Shown here in pieces: positions 6,024-62,500 of a DNA stretch of 64,000 nt. The position numbers and the translations under genes are program-made. The notes under the pieces were generated by a model that was not told the DNA's origin, ran no database searches, and worked only from the letters and a program-made list of their open reading frames with translations. How positions within the stretch are numbered: position 1 is the first letter of the stretch; every line of letters starts with the position of its first letter. The DNA comes from Micromonospora coxensis (GTDB taxonomy: Bacteria; Actinomycetota; Actinomycetes; Mycobacteriales; Micromonosporaceae): NCBI RefSeq assembly GCF_900090295.1, contig NZ_LT607753.1, positions 62,001 to 126,000 on the forward strand, read 5' to 3'.

Positions 6024-7592
6024 ATGACCGACACCACCGGATCCTCCCCACCGTCGCGCAGCGCCGGGCGGGAAGTGCCCGACGTGGCCGGCGCCCGCAC
6101 GCCCCGGGTGGCGATCATCGGCTCCGGGTTCGGCGGGGTGGCGGTCGCCGCCGCGTTGCTGCGGGCCGGCTACGACGACGTCGTGCTGCTGGAGAGGGCC
6201 GACGGGATCGGCGGGGTGTGGCGGGACAACAGCTACCCCGGGTGCGCCTGCGACATCCCCGCGCCGCTGTACTCGTACTCCTTCGCGCTCAACCCGGACT
6301 GGTCGCGGCGCTTCCCGTCGCACGCGGAGATCCTCGGCTACCTGCGCCGCTGCGCCGACGACCTGGGCGTCACCGCACGGGTCCGGCTGCGCACCGAGGT
6401 CACCGACGCCACCTGGGACGAGGCCGGTTCGTGCTGGCGGTTGCGCACCGGCGCCGGCGAGGAGGTCGTCGCCGACGTGCTGATCCCGGCGGTCGGGCAG
6501 CTCTCCCGCCCGGTGGTGCCGGCGCTGCCCGGCGCACACCGCTTCCGGGGCCGGGCCGTGCACACCGCCCGCTGGGACCCGACGGTGCGCGTCGACGGCG
6601 CCCGGGTCGCGGTCGTCGGCACCGGCGCCAGCGCGATCCAACTGGTCCCGGCGATCGCCGGCCGCGCCGCGCACGTCACCGTGTTCCAGCGCACCGCCCC
6701 GTGGACGCTGCCCAAACCGGACCGCCGCTACGGGGCGCTGCGCCGCTCGGCGTACCGGCGGTGGCCGTGGCTGATGCGCCTGCCCCGCGCCGGCGTCTGG
6801 GCGATGACCGTGGTGACCGGGCTCGCCGTCACCGGCAACCGGGCCGCCGGCGCCCTGCTGCGCACCCTGTCGGCCGCCCAGCGCCGCTGGCAGGTGCGCG
6901 ATCCCGACCTGCGCGCCCGGATCACCCCCGACGAGCCGATGGGCTGCAAGCGGGTGCTGTTCACCAGCGACTGGCTGCCCACCCTGGCCCGACCCGACGT
7001 CGACCTGGTCACCGAGAAGATCGTCGAGGTCACCGCGGACGGCGTCCGCACCGCCGACGGCCGCACCCACCCGTGCGACGTGCTGGTCTACGGCACCGGC
7101 TTCGCCGCCACCGACTTCCTCACCCCGATCCGGGTCACCGGACGCGCCGGCCGCCGCCTCGACGAGGTGTGGCGCGACGGCGCGCACGCCTACCTCGGCA
7201 TGGCGGTGCCCGGCTTCCCGAACCTCTTCCTCGTGTACGGCCCCAACACCAACACCGGCAACACCTCGGTGGTCTACTTCCACGAGGCCCAGGCGCGCTA
7301 CATCGCCCAGGCGGTACGCCTGATCGCCGCCGGCGGGCCACCGTTGGACGTACGCGCGGACGTGGCCGCCGCCTACGACGCCGAGCTGCAACGACGGCTC
7401 GCCGGCAGTGTCTGGACCGGGTGCCAGAGCTGGTACCGCACCCCCGGCGGCCGGGTCGTCACCAACTGGCCCGGCCTGGCGGGGGAGTACCGGCGCGCCA
7501 CCGCCCGGTTCCGGCCCGCCGACTACGGCCGGATCAGCCCAGCCGCTGCCGGGCGAGGAACGCCGGCACCACCATCCGCCACGCCTCGGTGA
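6024..7592 (+). CDS. flavin-containing monooxygenase, Baeyer-Villiger type
   Basis: A 522-aa class B flavoprotein monooxygenase. It has an FAD Rossmann motif VAIIGSGFGGVAVAAAL near residue 32, the GIGGVWRDNSYPGCACDIPAPLYSYSF-type block near 63 (quoted in part: GIGGVWRDNSYPGC), the Baeyer-Villiger fingerprint FRGRAVHTARWD (F-x-G-x3-H-x3-W) near 174, and a second Rossmann motif VAVVGTGASAIQ for NADPH. It should insert one oxygen atom into a ketone (ester or lactone formation) or oxidise a soft heteroatom; the ketone substrate is unknown. GGGAG lies nine bases before ATG 6024. It follows the thiolase-like gene on the same strand. The last 59 bases overlap the convergent YjbR gene, and the final residues (PAAAGRGTPAPPSATPR) look non-family, so the natural end may be a recent extension. 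Confidence 0.9.
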   Translation: MTDTTGSSPPSRSAGREVPDVAGARTPRVAIIGSGFGGVAVAAALLRAGYDDVVLLERADGIGGVWRDNSYPGCACDIPAPLYSYSFALNPDWSRRFPSHAEILGYLRRCADDLGVTARVRLRTEVTDATWDEAGSCWRLRTGAGEEVVADVLIPAVGQLSRPVVPALPGAHRFRGRAVHTARWDPTVRVDGARVAVVGTGASAIQLVPAIAGRAAHVTVFQRTAPWTLPKPDRRYGALRRSAYRRWPWLMRLPRAGVWAMTVVTGLAVTGNRAAGALLRTLSAAQRRWQVRDPDLRARITPDEPMGCKRVLFTSDWLPTLARPDVDLVTEKIVEVTADGVRTADGRTHPCDVLVYGTGFAATDFLTPIRVTGRAGRRLDEVWRDGAHAYLGMAVPGFPNLFLVYGPNTNTGNTSVVYFHEAQARYIAQAVRLIAAGGPPLDVRADVAAAYDAELQRRLAGSVWTGCQSWYRTPGGRVVTNWPGLAGEYRRATARFRPADYGRISPAAAGRGTPAPPSATPR

Positions 7593-7872
7593 CCAGTTCG
7601 GTCATCTGCGCCTCGTCGAGCCGCGCGACCCGGCAGCACACCCAGTTGAACCGCAGGTCGGACGCGGGTGGCAGCAGGAACAGCTGCGGATCGGCCGCGA
7701 CGAGACCGGCGCGCTGCTCCTTCGGGAAGGCGAAGCCCATGGTCTGCTCGTCGCGCGAGAACGCCACGTACACCAGCCGGCCGACCCGGAACTTCACCCG
7801 GTCGTGGATCAGGTGCTCGCTGCTGCGGGGCAGCGTCCGGGCCAGGGCACGGACGTCGGCGACGGTGACCAC
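7534..7872 (-). CDS. MmcQ/YjbR-family protein
   Basis: A 112-aa protein of the MmcQ/YjbR (CyaY-like fold) family. It begins VTVADVRALARTLPRSSEH, and contains KFRVGRLVYVAFSRDEQTMGF and the family-typical LRFNWVCCRVARLDEAQMTELVTEAWRM-type end (shown in part: RFNWVCCRVARLD). The fold resembles a nucleic-acid-binding helix-swapped domain, but the function of the family is unsettled. It has no evident link to its neighbours. The 3' end overlaps the monooxygenase gene by 59 bases. GTG 7872 is the first start; other GTG codons lie three and nine bases on. Confidence 0.85.
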   Translation of the reverse strand: MVTVADVRALARTLPRSSEHLIHDRVKFRVGRLVYVAFSRDEQTMGFAFPKEQRAGLVAADPQLFLLPPASDLRFNWVCCRVARLDEAQMTELVTEAWRMVVPAFLARQRLG

Positions 7873-7904
7873 CCCGGCACCCTAGCGCCGACCCCCGACA
7901 CCCC

Positions 7905-7945
7905 GGCCGGCTCGCGGGTCCACCTCCCGGACCCGCGAGCCGGCC
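7905..7945 (-). terminator. Strong hairpin after the DUF5682 gene-end side
   Basis: A perfect 17-bp stem (7905-7921 with 7929-7945) and a seven-base loop, without a T-tract. It lies between the start of the YjbR gene and the 3' end of the five-gene MoxR module, so it probably ends transcription of that module before yjbR. Confidence 0.65.
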
Positions 7946-7957
7946 GACAGTCGTCGG

Positions 7958-10765
7958 CTACCGCCCGACCGCCGCGAACAGCCCCGCCACGGCGTCGACC
8001 GTGCCCGGGTGCGCCGCCAGCAGCCCGGCCACCTCCGACGCACCCGGCGGCACGTCCGCCGGCTGCCAGGCGGCGTCGCAGCCGAACAGCGCCGCCACCG
8101 CGTCCACCGGCTCCGGATGCGCGGCGAGCAGCGCGGCGACCGGCCCCGCCACGACGGCCGGAGCCGCCACCGCCGTCGGCGCCGGCGCGATCCACGGCGG
8201 CACCCAGGCGTCCAGCGCCGGCAGGGTGCCGGGGAAGGTCCGCCCCGCCTCGCGGACCAGCAGCGGCACCAGCTCCGGACCCTGCTCCCGCAGGGTGGTG
8301 ATCAGCGTCGGCAACCAGGGCAGCAGCACCGGGTCGGGCAGCCGGGCGAACGCGGTCGACATCGTCTCCACCACGAACGGCGCCAGCGCCGGCACCGGCT
8401 CCAACGCCTGCACGAACCCGGAGAGGTACTGCGGGAACGCCGGCACCACCAGCGGGTTGCCGAGCAGCTGCGCGCAGCGCTCCCGCAACCCGGCCAGCGA
8501 GAGCAGGCCGAGCTGGTGGCGGGCGGCCCAGAGCAGCGCCACCTTCGCCGGGCTCTCCGGATGCGACTGCGCGACGGCCAGTTCGAGCTGCGAGCGGTCG
8601 CAGCCCAGCGACAACGCCAGCCCCTCCATGCCGAACAGGAACCCCAGCATCGCCCCGACCTGGCGTACGCCGGTCTCCTCGTCCACCACGGCGGTGGGCA
8701 GCAGGGTGCAGTAGTGCGCGTAGCCGGTGGTGACGAACGCCCGGCACCAGGCGGGCAGCGCCCCGGACGCCCGGTGGTGGGCGAGCAGCCGACGGATGCG
8801 GCGCAGCACCTCCGGGGCGTCGTCGACGGTGCGCTCGGCGGCGAGCAGCTCCACCGCCCGGGCACCCAGTTCGTCGACCAGGCGAGGGCTGTCCAGCAGC
8901 CGGATCGCGTCCTCGACCGCCCCGAGGGCGACCGCCGCCGTCGCCCGGGGACCCCGCACCGCCCGGCGCAGCCGCTGCTCCAGCACCTGCTCGACGGTCA
9001 CCCCCTCGTACCCCAGCTCGATCAGGGCACGCTGGTTGCGGCCCAGCGCCAGGTCCCAGCTCTCCTGGATCGACCGGTGCCCCAGCCGGCGCTCGCCCAT
9101 GATGGGACGGACCGCGTCCGGCGGGAGCAGGTGGCGCAGCATCCACAGCAGATCGGAGCAGGGCGCCAGCGCCGGATCGCCGTGCAGGTCCAGCAGCGCC
9201 CGCTGCACGGTCCGCTTCTCCAGGTCCAACCCGAGCGGAGCCAGCCGGTCCAGCACGTCACGGGCCAGCGGCGGCAGGGCGTCGTAGCCGACCTGGCCGA
9301 CCCGGTCGCCGCCGAGCAGGATCTCGCAGAGCCGCCGCACGTCGCGCCGGCCGGGCACCACGTCCTTCTCGATGCAGGTGACGGCCGCGTCGGCGAAGTC
9401 GTACGGGGTGGGCCGGGCCCGGTTGCGCAGCCCGGCCAGCAGGATCGACGTCTCGAACACCGCGATCGCGTCGGCGGTGCTGGCCAGGTAGCCGTTGCGC
9501 CGGGCCAGCCGCACGATGTCGACGCACCAGCCGCGCAGCTCCGCCTCGTCCAGGCCGCCCGGGGTGGGCGGCGCGGCCAGGAACCCGGAGAGCCGGTCGG
9601 TGACCGGGGCGGCCGGGGAGGCGGCCGGCCCGCCCTTGCCGCGCCGGGTCCGCCCACCGCGCTGCCCGTCCAGGCGGAACGGCGCCAGACCGGAGCGGGC
9701 GACCGCCTTCTGCCAGCCCGCCGCGGCGATGGACACCGCGCCGGAGGCGAGCCCGAACTGCGCCTCGATCGCCGAGTGGCTGGACGGGATCAGCCCGTAG
9801 CGCCAGCGGGTGCCGGTACGCGGAGTGATCTCGAAGGGCGGGGCGTCGGCGGCGAGCCCGAACTGCGCGACCCGGCTGGCGGCGTGGAACGCCCCGCAGA
9901 CGTAGAGGCAGTCGGCCGGGTCGGCCCCGGACGCGGCCAGGTGCTGCCGCATCCGCGTCCACATGTACCGCTCCCGGTCCTCGTCGCGGTCGGTCCGCTC
10001 CGACCCGGCCGGGCGCAGCCGCCGGAACAGGCTGCCGATGAGCACCATCACCTGCCGGTAGGTGTCGTGGTCGGCGTCGGCGAGGGGCTGCTCGACGTAC
10101 TGGTCCCACCACTCCGACCAGTGCCGCACCTTGCCGTGGTGCAGCAGGTACGCCTCCAGCTCGGCGAAGCGGGGCCGCAGCTCGCCGATCTCCACCCCGA
10201 CCGCGTCGCCGTGCAGCGCGGCGTCCTCGTCGAGGGTCGCCGGCGGCTCGGTGTCACCGCCGTCGGCCGGACCGTCGTCGCGGGGCGTCCACTGGAAGAC
10301 GTGGTCGGTGGAGCGGTCGACCAGCACCAGCTCGACCCCCGGGGTGTCCAGCGCGTACGCGATCGCCTGGTACTCGGCGGACGCCTCGGTGACCGGCGCG
10401 ACGACGCTGAGCGGACCCCACTCGGCGGGGAAGCCCTCCAGCTCCGAGGCGAACGCCTGCACGGCCACCGGCAGGCGGCAGTTGCGCAGCTCGCCCAAGA
10501 GCGGCTGGAGATCCTCGCAGAGCTCCAGGTAGATCACCTTGGGCTGCTTGGCCCGCAGCCGGCGCACCATCGCCAGCGCGGAGGCCGGCGAGTGGTGGCA
10601 GACCGGGAAGATCTCCAGCGGCTCGCCGAGGGCGCGGTCGACGTCGTCGACCATGCCGGCGAGGATGCCGGCCACCGCGTCGGGAGAGCCGCCGAAGGTG
10701 GCCGCCGCCTCGGCGAGCTGCTCGCGCAGCGCCGCGAACGGGCCGGTGGGGGCGGGCCCGGTCAT
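7958..10765 (-). CDS. DUF5682-family protein of the MoxR/vWA module (YehM-like)
   Basis: A 935-aa soluble protein without signal or membrane segments. The N-terminal third carries the features I associate with DUF5682: PVCHHSPASALAMVRRL near residue 55, VIYLELCEDLQPLL, and a SEYQAIAYALDTPGVELVLVDRSTDH block near 130. The rest is helix-rich and repeat-like (alpha-solenoid appearance) with many Leu/Ala/Arg segments. A short basic linker, GRTRRGKGG, lies near residue 375. It is the last gene of the five-gene operon and its ATG overlaps the ATPase stop by four bases (ATGA). Equivalent genes accompany MoxR-type ATPase, vWA and SWIM genes in enterobacteria (yehL-M-P-Q) and many actinobacteria. The molecular function is unknown; a scaffold or effector controlled by the ATPase is plausible. 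Confidence 0.85.
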   Translation of the reverse strand: MTGPAPTGPFAALREQLAEAAATFGGSPDAVAGILAGMVDDVDRALGEPLEIFPVCHHSPASALAMVRRLRAKQPKVIYLELCEDLQPLLGELRNCRLPVAVQAFASELEGFPAEWGPLSVVAPVTEASAEYQAIAYALDTPGVELVLVDRSTDHVFQWTPRDDGPADGGDTEPPATLDEDAALHGDAVGVEIGELRPRFAELEAYLLHHGKVRHWSEWWDQYVEQPLADADHDTYRQVMVLIGSLFRRLRPAGSERTDRDEDRERYMWTRMRQHLAASGADPADCLYVCGAFHAASRVAQFGLAADAPPFEITPRTGTRWRYGLIPSSHSAIEAQFGLASGAVSIAAAGWQKAVARSGLAPFRLDGQRGGRTRRGKGGPAASPAAPVTDRLSGFLAAPPTPGGLDEAELRGWCVDIVRLARRNGYLASTADAIAVFETSILLAGLRNRARPTPYDFADAAVTCIEKDVVPGRRDVRRLCEILLGGDRVGQVGYDALPPLARDVLDRLAPLGLDLEKRTVQRALLDLHGDPALAPCSDLLWMLRHLLPPDAVRPIMGERRLGHRSIQESWDLALGRNQRALIELGYEGVTVEQVLEQRLRRAVRGPRATAAVALGAVEDAIRLLDSPRLVDELGARAVELLAAERTVDDAPEVLRRIRRLLAHHRASGALPAWCRAFVTTGYAHYCTLLPTAVVDEETGVRQVGAMLGFLFGMEGLALSLGCDRSQLELAVAQSHPESPAKVALLWAARHQLGLLSLAGLRERCAQLLGNPLVVPAFPQYLSGFVQALEPVPALAPFVVETMSTAFARLPDPVLLPWLPTLITTLREQGPELVPLLVREAGRTFPGTLPALDAWVPPWIAPAPTAVAAPAVVAGPVAALLAAHPEPVDAVAALFGCDAAWQPADVPPGASEVAGLLAAHPGTVDAVAGLFAAVGR

Positions 10766-11874
10766 GACAGCGACGCGATCGCCTGGCGGCCGCCGTCGAG
10801 GAAGCCCGCCCAGCCGCCGCCGTCCTGCTTGGCCCGCGGCTCGACCACGCCGTGCAGGTACTTGTTGAGGATCGCCAGGTCCTCCGGGCTGCGCCGGGCC
10901 AGCGACCCCATCAGCGACCCGGCCAGGGTCTCCGGGCGCAGGGTACGGTCGCCGAAGAACTGGCTGTGCAGGATCGCGTCCTCCAGCACGCCGATCTGCT
11001 CGGCGGTCGACAGCGCCGACTCCAGCTTCTCGTCGTCGCTGGTGGCCGACGCGGCGGCGGCCCGCAGGTCGGCGAAGCTCTGCAGCAGGATGTCCAGCAG
11101 CGTCGGCGGCACGTCCAGTTCGATGGCGTGCCGGCGCAGCAGCTCCTCGGTGCGGAACCGGACGATCTCCGCCTCGCTGCGCTTGTTGGTCACCACCGGG
11201 ATGCGGACGAAGTTGAACCGCCGCTTCAGCGCCGACGACAGGTCGTTGACGCCACGGTCGCGGCTGTTGGCGGTGGCGATGACCGAGAACCCGGGCTTGG
11301 CGAACACGATGTTGTCGTCGTTGAGCTCGGGGATGGAGACGTACTTCTCCGACAGGATCGAGATCAGCGCGTCCTGCACGTCGCTGGTGGAGCGGGTCAG
11401 CTCCTCGAAGCGGCCGATGACGCCCTGCTCCATGGCGGTCATGATCGGCGAGGGGATCATCGACTCGCGGGACTGCCCCCGGGCGATGACCATGGAGACG
11501 TTCCAGGAGTACTTGATGTGGTCCTCGGTGGTGCCGGCGGTGCCCTGCACCACCAGCGTGGAGTTGCGGCAGATCGCGGCGGACAGCAGCTCGGCCAGCC
11601 AGCTCTTGCCGGTGCCCGGGTCACCGATGAGCAGCAGGCCCCGGTCGGAGGCGAGCGTGACGATGCTCCGCTCGACGAAGCTGCGGTCGCCGAACCACTT
11701 CTGCGCGATCTCCCGGTCCAGGCCGTCGGCCCGCTCCGAGCCCAGGACGAACAGCCGCACCATGCGCGGGCTCAGCCGCCAGGAGAACGGCTTCGGCCCG
11801 GTGTCGACCGACTCCAGGTAGTCCAGCTCGTCGGCGTACTTGACCTCGGCGGGGGCACGCAACATCTCGGACAT
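10762..11874 (-). CDS. MoxR-type AAA+ ATPase (YehL-like)
   Basis: A 370-aa AAA+ ATPase. Walker A GDPGTGKS is at residues 84-91. The Walker B region reads GVIGRFEELTR, so the usual DE pair is FEE here. Sensor 1 is VIATANSRDRG and an arginine-finger-like ALKRRFNFV follows. The pre-sensor insertions and order fit the MoxR group, and the neighbourhood fits its YehL branch. MoxR ATPases act as chaperone-like remodelers with vWA partners, loading metal or cofactor or changing target conformation. The vWA gene lies 13 bases upstream in the same operon, which supports such a pair. Cytosolic; no membrane segments. The start MSEMLRAPAEVKYADEL follows directly on the short gap after the vWA stop. Confidence 0.9.
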   Translation of the reverse strand: MSEMLRAPAEVKYADELDYLESVDTGPKPFSWRLSPRMVRLFVLGSERADGLDREIAQKWFGDRSFVERSIVTLASDRGLLLIGDPGTGKSWLAELLSAAICRNSTLVVQGTAGTTEDHIKYSWNVSMVIARGQSRESMIPSPIMTAMEQGVIGRFEELTRSTSDVQDALISILSEKYVSIPELNDDNIVFAKPGFSVIATANSRDRGVNDLSSALKRRFNFVRIPVVTNKRSEAEIVRFRTEELLRRHAIELDVPPTLLDILLQSFADLRAAAASATSDDEKLESALSTAEQIGVLEDAILHSQFFGDRTLRPETLAGSLMGSLARRSPEDLAILNKYLHGVVEPRAKQDGGGWAGFLDGGRQAIASLS

Positions 11875-11887
11875 GTGGTGATGACTC

Positions 11888-13468
11888 CTAGGTGAGGAAG
11901 CTCTTGAGCTCGAAGACGAGTTTGCGGATGTGACCGGAGATGACCGGGGTGCCCAGGTCCTTGAAGCGTTGCCGGAACCACGGGTTGACGCTCTGCTGGC
12001 CGGAGCTGTTGACCGAGCCGACCGGGATGAACCGCACCCCGGAGCGGTGCACGGCCTCGATGCCCTCGAACAGGGGCTGGGACCGGTCGAACTCGTAGAA
12101 GTCCGAGATCCACACCATGACGGTGTTCCTCGGCTCGACGATCTTGGGTCGGGCGAGCGCCATCGCCACCGGGCCGTCGTTGCCCCCGCCCAGGTTGGTG
12201 CGCAGCAGCACCTCGAACGGGTCGTGCACCCACGGCGTCAGGTCCAGCGCCCGGGTGTCGTACGCGATGAGGTGCACGTCCACCTTGGGCAGCCCGGCGA
12301 AGATCGACGCGAGGATGGTGCAGTTGACCATCGAGTCGACCATCGAGCCGGACTGGTCCACCACCACGATCAGCCGCGACGGGGTGGTCCTGCGGGCGGT
12401 CTGCCGGTAGTAGAGCCGGTCGACGTAGAGCCGCTCGTCGTCCGGGCTCCAGTTGGTCAGGTTCTGCCAGATGGTGCGGTCCAGGTCGAGGTTGCGGAAC
12501 ACCCGCTTCGGCGGCACCGACCGGTCGATCGTCCCGACGCTGGTCTGCTCGACCTGCGTACGCAGCACCTGGGCGACCTCGTCGACGAAGCGGCGGATCA
12601 GCGCCTTGGCGTTGGCCAGCGCCACCCCGGACAGGTTCGCCTTGTCCCGCAGCAACTGCTCGATCAGCGACATGCTCGGGGTCAGCCGGGCGGCCAGCGC
12701 CGGATCGGCGAGCACCTCGCGCAGGTGCATCCGGCGCACCAGGTCGCCCTCCAGCCCGGCGAGCGTGCCGCCCAGCCCGCCGCTCTGCCGGCGCAGCTCG
12801 CCCGGCGCCGCCCCGCACGCCTGCTCGAACCAGCCGGCGTCGGACTGCCAGCGGGCCAGCTGTCCGGCGCTGACCGGCCCCGCGCCGGTGGCGAAGACGT
12901 TGAGCAGCAGCTTCGACACCAGCGCGGCCCGGCGCACCTCGGCCGCACCCGGCCGGTGCACCTCGGCGACCCCGGCCGTCGCCGGCTCCCGGTCCGCGCC
13001 GCCGGCCGTCGCGGGCTCCGGGTCCGCGCCGCCGGCCGCACCCGGCCGGTCCGCGTCGGCCGTCGCCGGCCCCGGGACGACGCCGGTGGCCCGGTCACCG
13101 GCCGCCGTGGCGCAGCCGCTGTCGACGTCCGACTCCGCCGCCCCGGCGACCGCCGCCGGGGCGGCATCGGCGCCCGCCCCGAGGGCGGACCCGGCGGGCG
13201 TCGCCACCCCGGACGGCGTCTCGTCGGGCGGGGTCAGCAGGCCGCGCAGCTCGTCGGCGAGCGCCGGGAAGCGCTGCACCACGGTGTCCACCGAGACGGC
13301 CGGGTCGAGCAGCGCCGCCGGCAGGCCGAGGTCGTCGACGACGGCCACGCTCGCCGACTCCAGGGTGGGCTGCTCGTCCGGGTCGAACAGCCGGGCCAGC
13401 AGCCGCCAGTACAGCACCTGCCGCCGGTTGGCGTCGGCGAGGTCGTGGGTGGGGATCGGCTCGGTCAT
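11888..13468 (-). CDS. vWA-domain protein of the MoxR module (YehP-like)
   Basis: A 526-aa protein with a C-terminal von Willebrand A domain. The MIDAS motif DQSGS is near residue 371, with the downstream Thr position in LLRTNLGGGND and the Asp in WISDFYEFD, so metal binding looks intact. The N-terminal 85 residues are helical (RRQVLYWRLLARLFDPDEQ). Residues about 90-165 form an Ala/Gly/Pro/Glu linker with imperfect repeats such as ADPEPATAGG and ADREPATAG. A helical middle domain lies between linker and vWA. vWA partners recruit targets to MoxR ATPases. ATG 13468 overlaps the stop of the upstream gene by four bases (ATGA). Frames extending further upstream in this phase are antisense-like and were excluded. 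Confidence 0.88.
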   Translation of the reverse strand: MTEPIPTHDLADANRRQVLYWRLLARLFDPDEQPTLESASVAVVDDLGLPAALLDPAVSVDTVVQRFPALADELRGLLTPPDETPSGVATPAGSALGAGADAAPAAVAGAAESDVDSGCATAAGDRATGVVPGPATADADRPGAAGGADPEPATAGGADREPATAGVAEVHRPGAAEVRRAALVSKLLLNVFATGAGPVSAGQLARWQSDAGWFEQACGAAPGELRRQSGGLGGTLAGLEGDLVRRMHLREVLADPALAARLTPSMSLIEQLLRDKANLSGVALANAKALIRRFVDEVAQVLRTQVEQTSVGTIDRSVPPKRVFRNLDLDRTIWQNLTNWSPDDERLYVDRLYYRQTARRTTPSRLIVVVDQSGSMVDSMVNCTILASIFAGLPKVDVHLIAYDTRALDLTPWVHDPFEVLLRTNLGGGNDGPVAMALARPKIVEPRNTVMVWISDFYEFDRSQPLFEGIEAVHRSGVRFIPVGSVNSSGQQSVNPWFRQRFKDLGTPVISGHIRKLVFELKSFLT

Positions 13469-14865
13469 CGGCGCAGCAACCGTCCCGCGCGCTCGCGCAG
13501 CACGGCCACGGCGTCGCCCGCCCTCGCCTCGGCCTTGGCCACCTTCGGGTCGGTGACGCCGACCGCCCAGTCGCCGGTGTGCGCCTCCACCACCTTGCGC
13601 TTGACGGTCGAGCGGACCGCGAGCGGCTGCACCCGCCACCGGCCGGCGTCCCAGCGGGCCAGGCCGATGCAGGCCGACGAGGTGACGACCAGCTCCGGGG
13701 TGACCGGTCCGCAGGACGGCAGGCGGTCGACCGCCAGGGCGATGCGCTGCCCGTCCAGCTCCAGTTCGGGGCCGCCGTCGGTGTCGTGCACCGTGTACCC
13801 CTCCAGCAGCACCGGCTCGGCGAGCACGGCCGGGTGCCGGTCCAGCGGCGGTGCGGCCGACGCCACGGCGGCGGGCAGCAGCACCCGCGCGGTGGCGAAC
13901 GGGTCGGCCGGTTCGGCCGGGCGTGCCGCCTCGTCGCGCCAGAGCAGGTCCGCGCCGTGCAGCGGCAGGTCGTCGACGGTCACGGCGCGCCGCTGGGCCA
14001 GCGCGTCCAGCAGGACGGGGTGGGCCTGCAGCAGCTGCCACAGCGCCGGACCGGAGATCGTGTCGACCTTCGCGGCGCCCACCGCCGTACGCACCAGCCG
14101 GGGCGCGCTCCCGTCGGCCGGTTCGAGGACCGCGTGCAGCTGGACCTGCACCGCCGTGTCGTGTTCGTGCACGTCCACCCCGAGCGGCAGCAGCCGGCCG
14201 CTGACCCGCTCCACCGTCCCCGGGTCCACCGGCCCGGCCTGGGCCAGCAGCATCCCCCGGCTCCACAGGTCGGCCCAGCGGCGGCTCGGCGGCTGCGGCA
14301 TGGTGGCGACCGGGACGCAGGCCCGCAGCTCGGCGGCCAGGCCGTCGAGCAGGACCGCCAGCCGGCGGGTGCCCGGCGTGGCCAGGGCGGACTCGATCGG
14401 GGCGTCGGCGGCGGCGAGCAACTCGTGGTCGACGCCGCGCCAGCCGGTCACCGCCAGCTCGTGCAGCCAGGCCCGCGCGCCGGCCGGGTCGGGCGGCACC
14501 TCGGTCGGCCCGGCGGTGGTGGCGGGCGTCCACGGCCGGCGCTCGCGTCCGAGCGCGGTGTCGAGCCGGGCCAGCAGGGCGTCGTGGGCGGCGCCGAACA
14601 ACGCCGTGCGCGCCCCGGCGAGCACGGCCAGGTGCTCCTCGGCGACGGAGCCGGCGGTCACCTTGCCCACCGCCTCGGCCACCCGGTCGGCCAGCGGGGT
14701 GGACGCCACCGCCCCGGCGAGGGCGGTCAGCGCGGCCGCGTCGGCCTCGCCGACCCGGGCCAGGCCCCGGATCAGGGCGTCGTCGAATCCGGCGGCGACG
14801 TCGAGCGCGTCGGCCAGCCCGGCCGGGTCGCCGTCGTGCAGCGCGGTGAGGTGGGTGCCCAGCAT
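13465..14865 (-). CDS. unassigned 466-aa protein of the MoxR/SWIM module
   Basis: I do not recognise this protein. The N-terminal half is Ala/Leu/Asp-rich and helical, with HEAT-like spacing. Around residues 110-125 it reads LDTALGRERRPWTPAT. The C-terminal half has more beta character (LDGQRIALAVDRLPSCGPV, ELVVTSSACIGLARWDAGRW), ending in an Arg-rich tail. No signal peptide, membrane segment or catalytic motif is visible. It sits between the SWIM and vWA genes, with a one-base overlap (TGATG) upstream and a four-base overlap downstream, so it is translationally coupled to both and very likely part of the same complex or pathway. A scaffold or substrate-recognition role would be a guess. Confidence 0.8.
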   Translation of the reverse strand: MLGTHLTALHDGDPAGLADALDVAAGFDDALIRGLARVGEADAAALTALAGAVASTPLADRVAEAVGKVTAGSVAEEHLAVLAGARTALFGAAHDALLARLDTALGRERRPWTPATTAGPTEVPPDPAGARAWLHELAVTGWRGVDHELLAAADAPIESALATPGTRRLAVLLDGLAAELRACVPVATMPQPPSRRWADLWSRGMLLAQAGPVDPGTVERVSGRLLPLGVDVHEHDTAVQVQLHAVLEPADGSAPRLVRTAVGAAKVDTISGPALWQLLQAHPVLLDALAQRRAVTVDDLPLHGADLLWRDEAARPAEPADPFATARVLLPAAVASAAPPLDRHPAVLAEPVLLEGYTVHDTDGGPELELDGQRIALAVDRLPSCGPVTPELVVTSSACIGLARWDAGRWRVQPLAVRSTVKRKVVEAHTGDWAVGVTDPKVAKAEARAGDAVAVLRERAGRLLRR

Positions 14866-15368
14866 CAGCGGCCCGCCCCGGTCGCCGGGAACCAGTGCAG
14901 CTCGGGTGCCGGGGTGCTGCTGCCGGGCAGCTCCAGGTAGGCCAGGTGGCGCAGGAACCGGCTGAACACCACCGCGGCGGAGGTCGGCTCGTGCCGGGCG
15001 TCCAACCGGCTCATCAGCTGCCCGCCGGTCTGCACCTCGTCACCGGCCTCGACCCGCAGGTACCGGGCGACCCGGTCGACGCCGTACTGGAGCACCGCCT
15101 CGTCGGCCAGGGCGTGCAGGTGCTTGCAGGGGGTGCCCCGCAGGCCGCCGCAGGGCCGGTTGTTGTTGGTGCTGCAGTGGTAGGCATGGGTGCCGGAGGC
15201 GACCGACGAGACGTACACCCGCTCGATGTCCGACCCGCTGGACACCACGCCCTGGAGCCGCCCGTCGGCCAGTTCCACGAAGGGCACCTTGGCCAGTTTG
15301 CGGGGCCGGGCGGGCGGCACCACCCGCACCGCGCTGCGCCGCTGGGCGGCCCCGTCCATGTCCGTCAC
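14865..15368 (-). CDS. SWIM zinc-finger protein heading the MoxR module (YehQ-like, short)
   Basis: A 167-aa protein with a SWIM-like zinc site. HCSTNNNRPCGGLRGTPCKH spans residues about 68-87 and gives C-x7-C-x7-C-x-H, a variant of the usual C-x-C-xn-C-x-H. SWIM domains bind DNA or proteins. The N-terminal Arg/Ala stretch (VVPPARPRKLAKVPF) precedes strands typical of SWIM proteins. GTG 15368 is chosen because GGAGG lies six bases upstream; an ATG nine bases further in is the alternative. It is the first gene of a five-gene minus-strand operon. The enterobacterial YehQ is much longer, so this is a compact version. The other module genes are close behind, with one- and four-base overlaps. Confidence 0.82.
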   Translation of the reverse strand: MTDMDGAAQRRSAVRVVPPARPRKLAKVPFVELADGRLQGVVSSGSDIERVYVSSVASGTHAYHCSTNNNRPCGGLRGTPCKHLHALADEAVLQYGVDRVARYLRVEAGDEVQTGGQLMSRLDARHEPTSAAVVFSRFLRHLAYLELPGSSTPAPELHWFPATGAGR

Positions 15369-15562
15369 TTCCGACCTCCCCGCCCGCCGGGAGACCGGCG
15401 ACGCCCATGGTGAGGCGGCCGTCGGATCGCACCGACGCCGCCGTGACGACATGGATCATGGACCACGGGTACGACACGATCCACGCCGGACTCCGTGGCG
15501 GTCGGCCGGCGCCGCCCGCCCCGGCGGGTGGGCCGGGGTCGCGGTGCCGGTGAGCCGCCCGA
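15369..15562. other. Non-coding stretch upstream of the MoxR module
   Basis: The gap from 15369 to 15874 is about 500 bases. Besides the two LacI-type operators and the araB promoter (listed separately) I see a GGAGG ribosome site at 15375-15379 for the SWIM gene. I find no convincing promoter for the minus-strand module; the longest palindromic feature is TGGATC (15450-15455) paired with GATCCA further right. No credible small gene. Confidence 0.4.
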
Positions 15563-15576
15563 TGTGAGCGCTCACA
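15563..15576. promoter_or_regulatory. LacI-family operator, distal, TGTGAGCGCTCACA
   Basis: A perfect 14-bp palindrome centred on the CG typical of LacI-type sites. It lies 268 bases before the second, near-identical copy that overlaps the araB promoter. The pair would allow looping repression by the LacI-family protein encoded at 24787; this is inference. Confidence 0.75.
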
Positions 15577-15816: not shown

Positions 15817-15845
15817 TTGACGGCCATCCATGTGAGCGCTAACAC
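15817..15845 (+). promoter_or_regulatory. araB promoter
   Basis: TTGACG (15817-15822), 17 bases, TAACAC (15840-15845). The LacI-type operator TGTGAGCGCTAACA occupies the spacer and -10. The predicted start point is near 15852, about 23 bases before the araB ATG. Confidence 0.65.
15831..15844. promoter_or_regulatory. LacI-family operator, proximal, over the araB -10
   Basis: TGTGAGCGCTAACA differs from the distal copy by one base. The position over the promoter spacer and -10 predicts direct repression, relieved by arabinose or a derivative bound to the regulator at 24787. Confidence 0.78.
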
Positions 15846-15874
15846 TGTGCGCAGCAGGCCACGGGAGGATGGGC

Positions 15875-61495: not shown

Positions 61496-62500
61496 ATGCC
61501 CGACAACACCACCGCAGCACCGCCGCCGGAGCGGCCCGGACTGTCCCGCCGCCGGTTCCTCGGCGGCGTCGGGGCGTCCGCGGCCGCGCTGACCGTCGGC
61601 TCGGTGCTCGGCACCGCCGAGTCCGCGTCCGCCGCCTACTACATGAAGTGGGGCGCGGTCGTCTCGCCCGGCGACGCCAGCAACAACATCGACTTCAACC
61701 GCAAGGTCGACATCCTGCGACGGATGCGGCCCCAGACCGCCCGGATCTCGATGTTCTGGGGCGACCCGTGGAACCGCCGGTTCAGCGACGCGCAGCTGGA
61801 GGCGCTGCGCGGCACCGGGCTCACCGAGATGATCATCCAGTCGTCGGAGGACCCGGACCCGAACCTGGCCCGCCACCAGCTCAACCTGATGCTGCCCTAC
61901 ATCGACGCCCACCCGAACACGCTCTTCGTCTGGGAACTGGGCAACGAGCCGGACTGGCACCTGCCGAACGACCCGTGGCTGGCCCGGTGGAAGCGGCTGG
62001 CCACCATCCGCGACAACAAGCCGGCCCAGGACCGGGGCAACCTGCTCTGGGCGATCAACATGCCGGCCGGCAGGTGGACCGGCGACGGCAGCGGCTTCAC
62101 CTTCGGCACCTCCGGGCGGTACTTCGACGCGTTCGTCCGGGACACCGGCGACGGGCTCGGCGGCATGCTGTCCGGGCCGTACCAGCCGGACGTGGTGACC
62201 GTGCACTGCTACAGCTCCACGTACCTGACCCGGGGCGCGGACGGCGGCGGCGAGCGCAACCCGTACAAGATGATCGACTACGTACGGGGCTGGAACTCCC
62301 GGATCAGCATGAAGGTCACCGAGGCCGGCATCGACGGGGCGAAGTCCGACCGAGGGTACCGGTACGTCAACTTCGGTTCGTCGGTCGCCAACGAGACCGC
62401 CGGCCAGATCGACAGCGTCTGCTTCTACGGCATCCCGCCGGCCGAACGGCAGTACGGCATCTGGGAGACCGAGGCCAACCAGATCGGCACCCACCCATGA
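61496..62500 (+). CDS. Tat-exported glycosidase-like protein
   Basis: A 334-aa protein. A twin-arginine signal (LSRRRFLGGVGASAAAL) ends near ESASA. The mature domain opens YYMKWGAVVSPGDASNNIDF and contains the clan A glycosidase-like motif WELGNEPDWHLP, where the Glu of NEP is the usual acid/base, and KVTEAGIDGAK near the end, a candidate nucleophile Glu. Between them, VVTVHCYSSTYLTRG fits the His/Tyr strand. The fold is likely a TIM barrel, but the GH family and substrate are unassigned. GGGGAGG precedes ATG 61496; the stop overlaps the next gene by four bases (ATGA). Confidence 0.8.
   Translation: MPDNTTAAPPPERPGLSRRRFLGGVGASAAALTVGSVLGTAESASAAYYMKWGAVVSPGDASNNIDFNRKVDILRRMRPQTARISMFWGDPWNRRFSDAQLEALRGTGLTEMIIQSSEDPDPNLARHQLNLMLPYIDAHPNTLFVWELGNEPDWHLPNDPWLARWKRLATIRDNKPAQDRGNLLWAINMPAGRWTGDGSGFTFGTSGRYFDAFVRDTGDGLGGMLSGPYQPDVVTVHCYSSTYLTRGADGGGERNPYKMIDYVRGWNSRISMKVTEAGIDGAKSDRGYRYVNFGSSVANETAGQIDSVCFYGIPPAERQYGIWETEANQIGTHP

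Follow-up and report, generated by a model that had tools for sequence, protein, structure and literature searches.

A five-gene module of the yeh class in Micromonospora coxensis and its predicted link to the actinobacterial DNA-damage response

By analyzing a stretch of 64,000 nucleotides from Micromonospora coxensis (positions 62001–126000 of contig NZ_LT607753.1, a one-contig genome of 6.77 Mb; in the following called the window) we found five genes on the minus strand, between positions 15368 and 7958, for which the sequence comparisons support that they are one unit of the class of the Escherichia coli yeh genes and that this unit stands in actinobacteria behind a RecA-independent promoter of the RecA-NDp/PafBC type. 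In transcription order the genes code for a small SWIM-like protein, a protein here called X, a vWA protein, a MoxR ATPase, and a DUF5682-like protein. It is probable that the module and its yeh sisters in actinobacteria belong to the DNA-damage regulon. The module thus appears to be a real conserved unit with a new link to the actinobacterial DNA-damage response; in the literature that we searched, a link between yeh-type modules and the actinobacterial damage promoter is not reported.

The five genes are tightly packed. The small SWIM gene overlaps the gene of X by one base, X overlaps the vWA gene by four bases (ATGA), a gap of 13 bases separates the vWA and MoxR genes, and the latter overlaps the DUF5682 gene by four bases. 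This agrees at all four junctions with the original prediction, made from the letters of the DNA alone, that the genes form a tight unit in one direction. Protein searches gave Micromonospora proteins as the nearest homologues of the module proteins.

Using hidden Markov models (HMMs) built for this analysis 110 loci were annotated and four operon types could be distinguished. Type A (DUF4132–MoxR–DUF5682–vWA–SWIM) is found in E. coli, in Iodobacter, in Rhizobiaceae with DUF4132 shifted, and in some actinobacteria. Type B (SWIM–DUF5691–MoxR–DUF5682–vWA) is present in this exact order in 45 loci and also in variants, among them 17 Streptomyces loci where SWIM and DUF5691 are paired in opposite orientation, nine loci without a DUF5691 match, and four loci with a YehI-like gene following. 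Type C is the arrangement of the module (small SWIM–X–vWA–MoxR–DUF5682) and comprises 14 loci besides the window. Type D, with three loci, has large proteins upstream of MoxR, which in the annotated locus are encoded by DUF4132 and "DNA-binding protein" genes. In the type D locus L039 the DUF5682 and vWA matches lie in one annotated protein (11110–14883), a natural fusion which supports a physical partnership of the two. Two types can occur in one genome, for example, A and C in G377 and C and D in G204. In the type A locus of an Iodobacter plasmid (L154) the YehQ-like match runs across two overlapping annotated genes and the locus adjoins a type I restriction system. DUF4132, the partner in types A and D, is encoded in an operon of Deinococcus radiodurans which is strongly upregulated when the damage repressor DdrO is depleted, according to the accessible part of PMC8533742.

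The upstream alignments of type C loci display a common block, TTGTCAGTG-N8-TA, which matches the RecA-NDp/PafBC consensus tTGTCRgtg-8 nt-TannnT as given in the available portion of PMC5656591. We examined 55 type C loci, 15 of them from the earlier set (window included) and 40 additionally fetched. The core TGTCR-N11-TA is present at most 160 nt upstream in 43 of them, while 200 base shuffles gave a mean of 0.4 and a maximum of 3. The reverse strand yielded one match, and six other spacings yielded 0, 0, 0, 2, 2, and 0. All 12 scored consensus bases are found in 10 of the 55 loci (mean of 100 shuffles 0.0), and relaxing the end of the core to [TC]A raises the count to 50 (shuffle mean 1.1). 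The same promoter precedes the sister operons: in type B loci called actinobacterial from record titles or handles the core stands upstream of the SWIM gene in 31 of 41 cases, and 14 of these match at each of the 12 positions (shuffle mean 0.47). Among the actinobacterial loci of the two remaining types, in L039 (type D) a 12/12 site lies 85 nt upstream of the DUF4132 gene and 6.0 kb upstream of MoxR, and in L062 (type A) an 11/12 site lies ∼30 nt upstream of a DUF4132-like frame. In the window the element is TGTCGTAC-N8-CATGAT (positions 15455–15476, minus strand), 86 bases before the GTG start of the small SWIM gene; read as TGTCG-N11-CA it is one base off the core and can be regarded as the Micromonospora version of a promoter of the RecA-NDp/PafBC type.

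Outside the actinobacteria the promoter is missing. The core was found upstream of the SWIM gene in none of 41 non-actinobacterial type B loci (shuffle mean 1.46), the yeh operon of E. coli has no RecA-NDp site, and the Iodobacter and Allorhizobium loci have none at all. Promoter control need therefore not define the function, and the module could be a general protein-quality chaperone with the damage promoter as one input among several and with an indirect link to DNA. The MoxR proteins studied to date act, as far as the accessible literature goes, as chaperones of protein complexes, and the available part of PMC5656591 reports that MoxR1, MoxR2, and a vWA protein of Mycobacterium smegmatis, whose class is not established, are lower without pafBC. 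However, members of all four operon types in actinobacteria have the promoter site, and we consider this explanation to be quite improbable.

Several observations weigh against placing the module in the damage regulon. With the relaxed core two other spacings also reach 10 of the 55 loci, the shuffles preserved base composition only, and the counts are not independent events because the loci are related. The scan of types A and D covered five actinobacterial loci, of which L063 (type D) and L064 (type A) have no site and L047 (type D) has only a 9/12 site, 5.7 kb before MoxR and at a gene without annotation. The −10 hexamer of the window reads CATGAT where the consensus is TANNNT, and the strict motif has no occurrence in G000 and G204, two genomes of the genus of the window; for genomes with a G number the genus and family are our own assignment. 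A LexA study of S. venezuelae reports, in the part accessible, that an initial search suggested that the PafBC motif of M. smegmatis is not conserved there (PMC9380542). Moreover, the evidence on the promoter comes entirely from sequence. The module of this strain may be under the control of PafBC.

The genes found behind other copies of the promoter speak for a damage regulon. The perfect motif occurs 28 times in G161 and 21 times in G023, both of one genus which is probably Streptomyces, and the reversed control occurs 0 and 1 times. We read 30 loci with perfect sites and scanned 19 distinct downstream proteins. Genes named ung, ruvC, uvrA, uvrB, ogt, recD2, and pcrA stand behind such sites; matches above the curated cut-offs were obtained for uracil-DNA glycosylase, RuvC (in both genomes), UvrB, Ogt, and, weakly, an AddB-like PD-(D/E)XK nuclease, and for UvrA, PcrA, RecD2, and a Hel308-like helicase, partly frames ending at the edge of the locus, the respective family was the best match yet below the cut-off. 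The yeh class itself is among the genes with a perfect site: a type C small SWIM gene (L326) and two type B SWIM genes (L302 and L327, one by a Pfam SWIM match and the other by the CSCPSRKFPCKH signature), where the identification concerns the SWIM genes only. The other proteins behind perfect sites are YjbR, GmrSD, SUKH-4, TerD, two sigma factors, and one protein without family.

For the genus of the window we used the pattern TGTCGTAC-N8-YANNNT, which was written after the window element had been seen. It gave 13 matches in G000 and 16 in G204, against 0 and 2 with the reversed control. In both genomes it precedes this unit, uvrA (L335/L359), and a gene of the uracil-DNA glycosylase family (L341/L352, 93% identical); of uvrA and of the glycosylase gene one copy each was scanned and the other was recognized by sequence. 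In G204 the element is in addition found once each before a Y-family polymerase, an AlkZ-like glycosylase, and a PD-(D/E)XK nuclease. A WYL-domain regulator gene stands behind the element in G000 (L339) and is a candidate for a partner or paralogue of PafBC. Altogether 29 loci were collected and 10 proteins scanned, three of which are without family and one of which has helix-turn-helix domains only. Many of the remaining sites are located within long open frames, where they may have arisen by chance.

The YjbR/MmcQ gene directly after the module (7534–7901, minus strand) has a RecA-NDp-like site of its own, GTGTCGGGG-N8-TAGGGT, with 10 of 12 bases, just before its GTG, and a Streptomyces-like YjbR gene (L308) stands behind a perfect site. 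On the other side, between the unit and the divergent ribulokinase gene at 15869, the sequence has two palindrome-like sites of the LacI type, TGTGAGCGCTCACA at 15563–15576 and TGTTAGCGCTCACA at 15831–15844. Two further features of the unit were read directly from the sequence, both on the minus strand. A ribosome-binding site GGGAGG (15375–15380) precedes the GTG start of the small SWIM gene, for which a longer open reading frame from an ATG at 15452 is also open, and an inverted repeat with perfect arms of 18 bp and a loop of 7 bases (7904–7946) lies just past the stop codon of the DUF5682 gene. The repeat is likely the end of the transcription unit; it has no run of T and the terminator scan did not detect it.

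Searches for X gave matches in 77 of 150 genomes belonging to the family of the window and in 5 of 296 genomes drawn from the phylum, and the type C DUF5682 was found in 21 of 296 genomes drawn from the class. Type C was seen only in actinobacteria, where it should be noted that beyond the phylum X was sought only by a protein search of which the best 120 of 2,136 matches were considered. For linkage we examined 80 genomes of the family, namely 60 of the 76 X-positive genomes (the genome of the window left out) and 20 of the 73 X-negative ones. DUF5682 is present in 60 of 60 X-positive and in 0 of 20 X-negative genomes, and in all 60 the two genes share contig and strand at a distance of 2,401–2,837 bp, where split matches were counted by one piece (X in G345, G453, and G461; DUF5682 in G467, G480, and G498). 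In G480 the other piece of the DUF5682 match has an in-frame TGA. The order X–vWA–MoxR–DUF5682 holds in all 14 fetched type C loci, and the small SWIM gene was detected in 13 by HMM and in the 14th by tblastn; as these loci were chosen by a match to X, MoxR, or DUF5682, they cannot serve as independent evidence on gene content and the 80-genome comparison is the better test. No flanking genes are common to the type C loci beyond three similar loci. With fixed linkage and flanking genes that are not shared, the conserved unit consists of these five genes. The possibility raised along with the original prediction, that the homologues are usually found apart, was thus checked and the genes were found together.

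These data also bear on the question whether the module acts against phage or in another kind of conflict, with invading or damaged DNA as the trigger. MoxR–vWA pairs are the core of conflict systems described in the accessible part of PMC7159879, and the module has a patchy distribution even within its family. Some sister copies are on records filed as plasmids (a few of them of chromosome size), one of them adjoining a type I restriction system. In G023 and G161 perfect sites precede GmrSD-type restriction, SUKH-4, and TerD genes (L315, L319, and L320); the damage regulon may therefore include conflict genes, and a damage promoter could respond to phage. On the other hand, PADLOC gave only weak matches, TerY with 17.4 bits for the vWA protein and mad8 with 22.4 bits together with weaker IetA and REase_II for MoxR. 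There is no variable effector but one fixed gene set (14 loci, 60 genomes), and none of 23 pattern matches in viral contigs could be confirmed as a relative of MoxR. Among relatives DUF5682 is 65–96% and MoxR 87–99% identical to the copy of the window, which is unlike an arms race. Fixed gene content and high conservation are not what would be expected of a conflict system that diversifies fast, and we regard a conflict function as improbable. It had originally been held that a chaperone, a nucleic-acid-linked, and a conflict role are all open; this can be narrowed, as the promoter favors a role in DNA damage.

The labels of the MoxR and vWA proteins in the original prediction were borne out (AAA_5, E value 2.2e-36; VWA_CoxE, 2.4e-28). 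The MoxR protein (370 aa, positions 10762–11874, minus strand) is 40% identical to E. coli YehL over 358 aligned columns (E value 3e-86), has conserved Walker A, the EE of Walker B, IATAN, and ALKRRF motifs, and belongs to the YehL clade, as judged from the signature IATANxRD[RK]G common to both. The vWA protein (526 aa, 11888–13468, minus strand) is 31% identical to YehP (E value 2e-44), scores 99.5 bits with VWA_CoxE, and contains a low-complexity linker. In its metal-ion-dependent adhesion site (MIDAS) DQSGS and SDF are present and GGGND is found in place of the GGGTN of YehP. Overall the motifs of both proteins are largely intact in the alignments. According to the accessible part of PMC13036017, in the NorQD pair a finger of the vWA protein enters the MoxR pore and the ATPase remodels a linker of the vWA protein, and the pair is required for iron insertion into cNOR. 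By analogy, the MoxR and vWA proteins of the module would form a complex with ATP-driven remodeling. The DUF5682 protein and YehM both match PF18934, and the yeh-like character that had been proposed is upheld for these three proteins by homology; for the small SWIM protein and X no usable BLAST match to YehQ was obtained.

The same analogy allows the module to be viewed as a maturation chaperone of a metallo-enzyme, in which MoxR–vWA supplies DUF5682 or another client with its metal or activates it, the promoter provides the timing, and X and the small SWIM protein serve as adaptors or metal carriers. The vWA protein is of the CoxE family, the NorQD pair is needed for iron insertion, and DUF5682 has invariant histidine and glutamate residues which could bind metal. 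DUF5682 also accompanies MoxR widely. In a scan for YehL-like MoxR proteins, of which the best 80 of 589 confirmed loci were considered and which leans to type B since the first query row was of type B, records came from Proteobacteria, Chloroflexi, Cyanobacteria, Bacteroidota, Acidobacteria, actinobacteria, and others, and 72 of the 80 loci have a DUF5682 match; five of the eight others end on the contig within ∼2 kb past MoxR. Deinococcus and Hymenobacter plasmids also carry the yeh-type set. However, the three remaining loci (L067, L070, and L088) have no DUF5682 match despite more than 4 kb beyond MoxR, and metal insertion alone leaves the repair-type promoter and the OB-like X unexplained. 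We therefore consider a metallo-chaperone unlikely.

The two upstream proteins may provide the link to nucleic acids. The small SWIM-like zinc-knuckle protein (167 aa, positions 14865–15368, minus strand) contains the motif C-X7-C-X7-C-X-H within a block of strong conservation; of the 15 sequences aligned, 13 have this motif and in two the second gap is one residue longer. The SWIM label given originally is partly justified: of the profiles compared, that of the type B SWIM finger matches best (hhalign E value 9.5e-4, a single comparison), but the Pfam scan gave no match and the spacing is not C-X-C-Xn-C-X-H. X (466 aa, 13465–14865, minus strand) is modeled as helical to about residue 210, followed by two regions resembling oligonucleotide/oligosaccharide-binding (OB) barrels at residues ∼217–330 and ∼340–430. 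It had been described as an extra unassigned gene; in fact it occupies the position which in the sister operons is that of DUF5691 or of the tail of the long SWIM protein, with a homology to either below significance. The comparison with DUF5691 gave hhalign E values of 0.63 for the whole protein and of 0.44 and 0.89 for its halves and has low power because the effective number of sequences in the alignment of X is only 2.1. Among 11 templates the N-terminal half is closest to the YehQ family (E value 0.0075) and the OB half to the type B SWIM tail (E value 0.008), so that the profiles lean mildly to the tail of SWIM proteins and do not point to DUF5691, none of them significantly. The barrels predicted in X may point to nucleic-acid recognition, and it speaks against such a role that OB-like barrels bind sugars and proteins too and that pertussis-toxin subunits are among the structure matches of X.

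The last gene codes for a divergent DUF5682 protein (935 aa, positions 7958–10765, minus strand) with TIKI/TraB-like motifs in the N-terminal and a mostly helical C-terminal part. Its similarity to YehM is weak (E value 5e-06). The DUF5682 label, also part of the original prediction, holds with 121.5 bits for PF18934 (E value 3.7e-35), above the cut-off in a whole-genome search, and a 97% identical homologue matches PF18934 with an E value of 4.2e-35. An hmmscan of the protein itself gave no match, and in precomputed annotation the domain is listed for only part of its homologues. Across 84 aligned sequences H57, E81, R264, E265, M268, and H294 are invariant, and these H, E, R-[ED]-x-x-M, and H motifs are collinear with the consensus lines of TraB and Ere. 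The catalytic residues of the TIKI, TraB, and Ere proteins are assigned here partly from general knowledge of these families. The other part of this assignment was taken from the accessible portion of PMC6254334. The motifs are suggestive of a hydrolase; we consider this function of DUF5682 possible, at somewhat less than an even chance. Several results argue against it. Type B sequences alone match TraB with an hhalign E value of 0.014, the best of eight templates and at the R..M..H motif, but for type C sequences alone the nominally best match to TraB (E value 0.083) lies away from the motifs, and with all DUF5682 sequences together MoxR (0.030) outranks TraB (0.055); the control pair of TraB and Ere reached only 0.10. 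The structure model has a mean predicted local distance difference test (pLDDT) score of 75.5, and the structure searches list helical proteins and no TIKI member.

The link to the regulon is strong as far as sequences can tell; on the mechanism we suggest the following. Upon DNA damage the unit would be switched on, and the small zinc protein together with the OB-like barrels of X would recognize DNA, single-stranded DNA, or a DNA-bound protein. The MoxR ring would work on the vWA adaptor as NorQ does on NorD, so that the substrate is brought in and remodeled. DUF5682, with its TIKI/TraB-like motifs and helical scaffold, would be the enzymatic output, a hydrolase which cuts or clears the remodeled protein. 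That the module is a damage-inducible, ATP-driven machine for nucleoprotein remodeling seems to us evenly balanced, and the same holds for an action on DNA or nucleoprotein; the whole chain of steps is unlikely to be correct throughout. Rather less likely again is the most specific version, in which a MoxR–vWA machine that the zinc-knuckle protein and X, as a tandem-OB protein, target to single-stranded DNA or DNA–protein crosslinks feeds a TIKI-type protease DUF5682, like an unfoldase with SPRTN, and in which the yeh operons elsewhere are the same machine under other control. If DUF5682 is indeed a TIKI-type protease, an energy-dependent proteolytic arm would be added to bacterial DNA repair. 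The yehLMPQ-type genes are present in E. coli K-12 and, going by the best 80 of the 589 confirmed loci, in many phyla and are so far uncharacterized; in the literature searched we found no functional study of yehL, yehM, yehP, or yehQ by name, nor of DUF5682 or DUF5691. Two papers name at least two of the four yeh genes and are, judged from their titles, a genome announcement and a strain resource. The promoter link provides a condition, an inducer, a candidate regulator, and a phenotype for testing in tractable Streptomyces.

The module can be compared to several known systems. As regards its control, it resembles the RecA-NDp/PafBC regulon, as the promoter core is found with the exact spacing of 11 bases in most type C relatives, with CATGAT in the copy of the window. 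The module has a MoxR ATPase and a vWA partner in common with NorQ–NorD, CoxDE, CbbQO, and RavA–ViaA; to our knowledge these belong to other MoxR clades and none of them has been described with DUF5682, SWIM, or X. The ternary vWA–MoxR conflict systems consist, in the portion of PMC7159879 available, of MoxR, vWA, and further subunits as in the module, and the words SWIM and yeh were not found in that portion; unlike in these systems, no variable effector is seen in the module, and a Pfam scan for a third subunit of the VMAP type gave only bpMoxR with 12.7 bits, under the cut-off of 27. DUF5682 shares the order of the H, E, R-[ED]-x-x-M, and H motifs with the TIKI/TraB/erythromycin-esterase superfamily but has an extra helical C-terminal half, and the likeness rests on the motifs. 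The type B operons share with the module the core trio, a SWIM protein, and, in actinobacteria, the damage promoter, but they have a long SWIM protein with a canonical finger, DUF5691, and no X, and are found in many phyla. Finally, the type A genes yehL–yehM–yehP–yehQ of E. coli, with the DUF4132 gene yehI upstream, encode homologous MoxR, DUF5682, and vWA proteins and include a SWIM protein in the set; there a single SWIM protein of 614 aa is found where the module has the 167-aa SWIM-like protein and X, and the order SWIM–X–vWA–MoxR–DUF5682 without DUF4132 is unlike that of E. coli.

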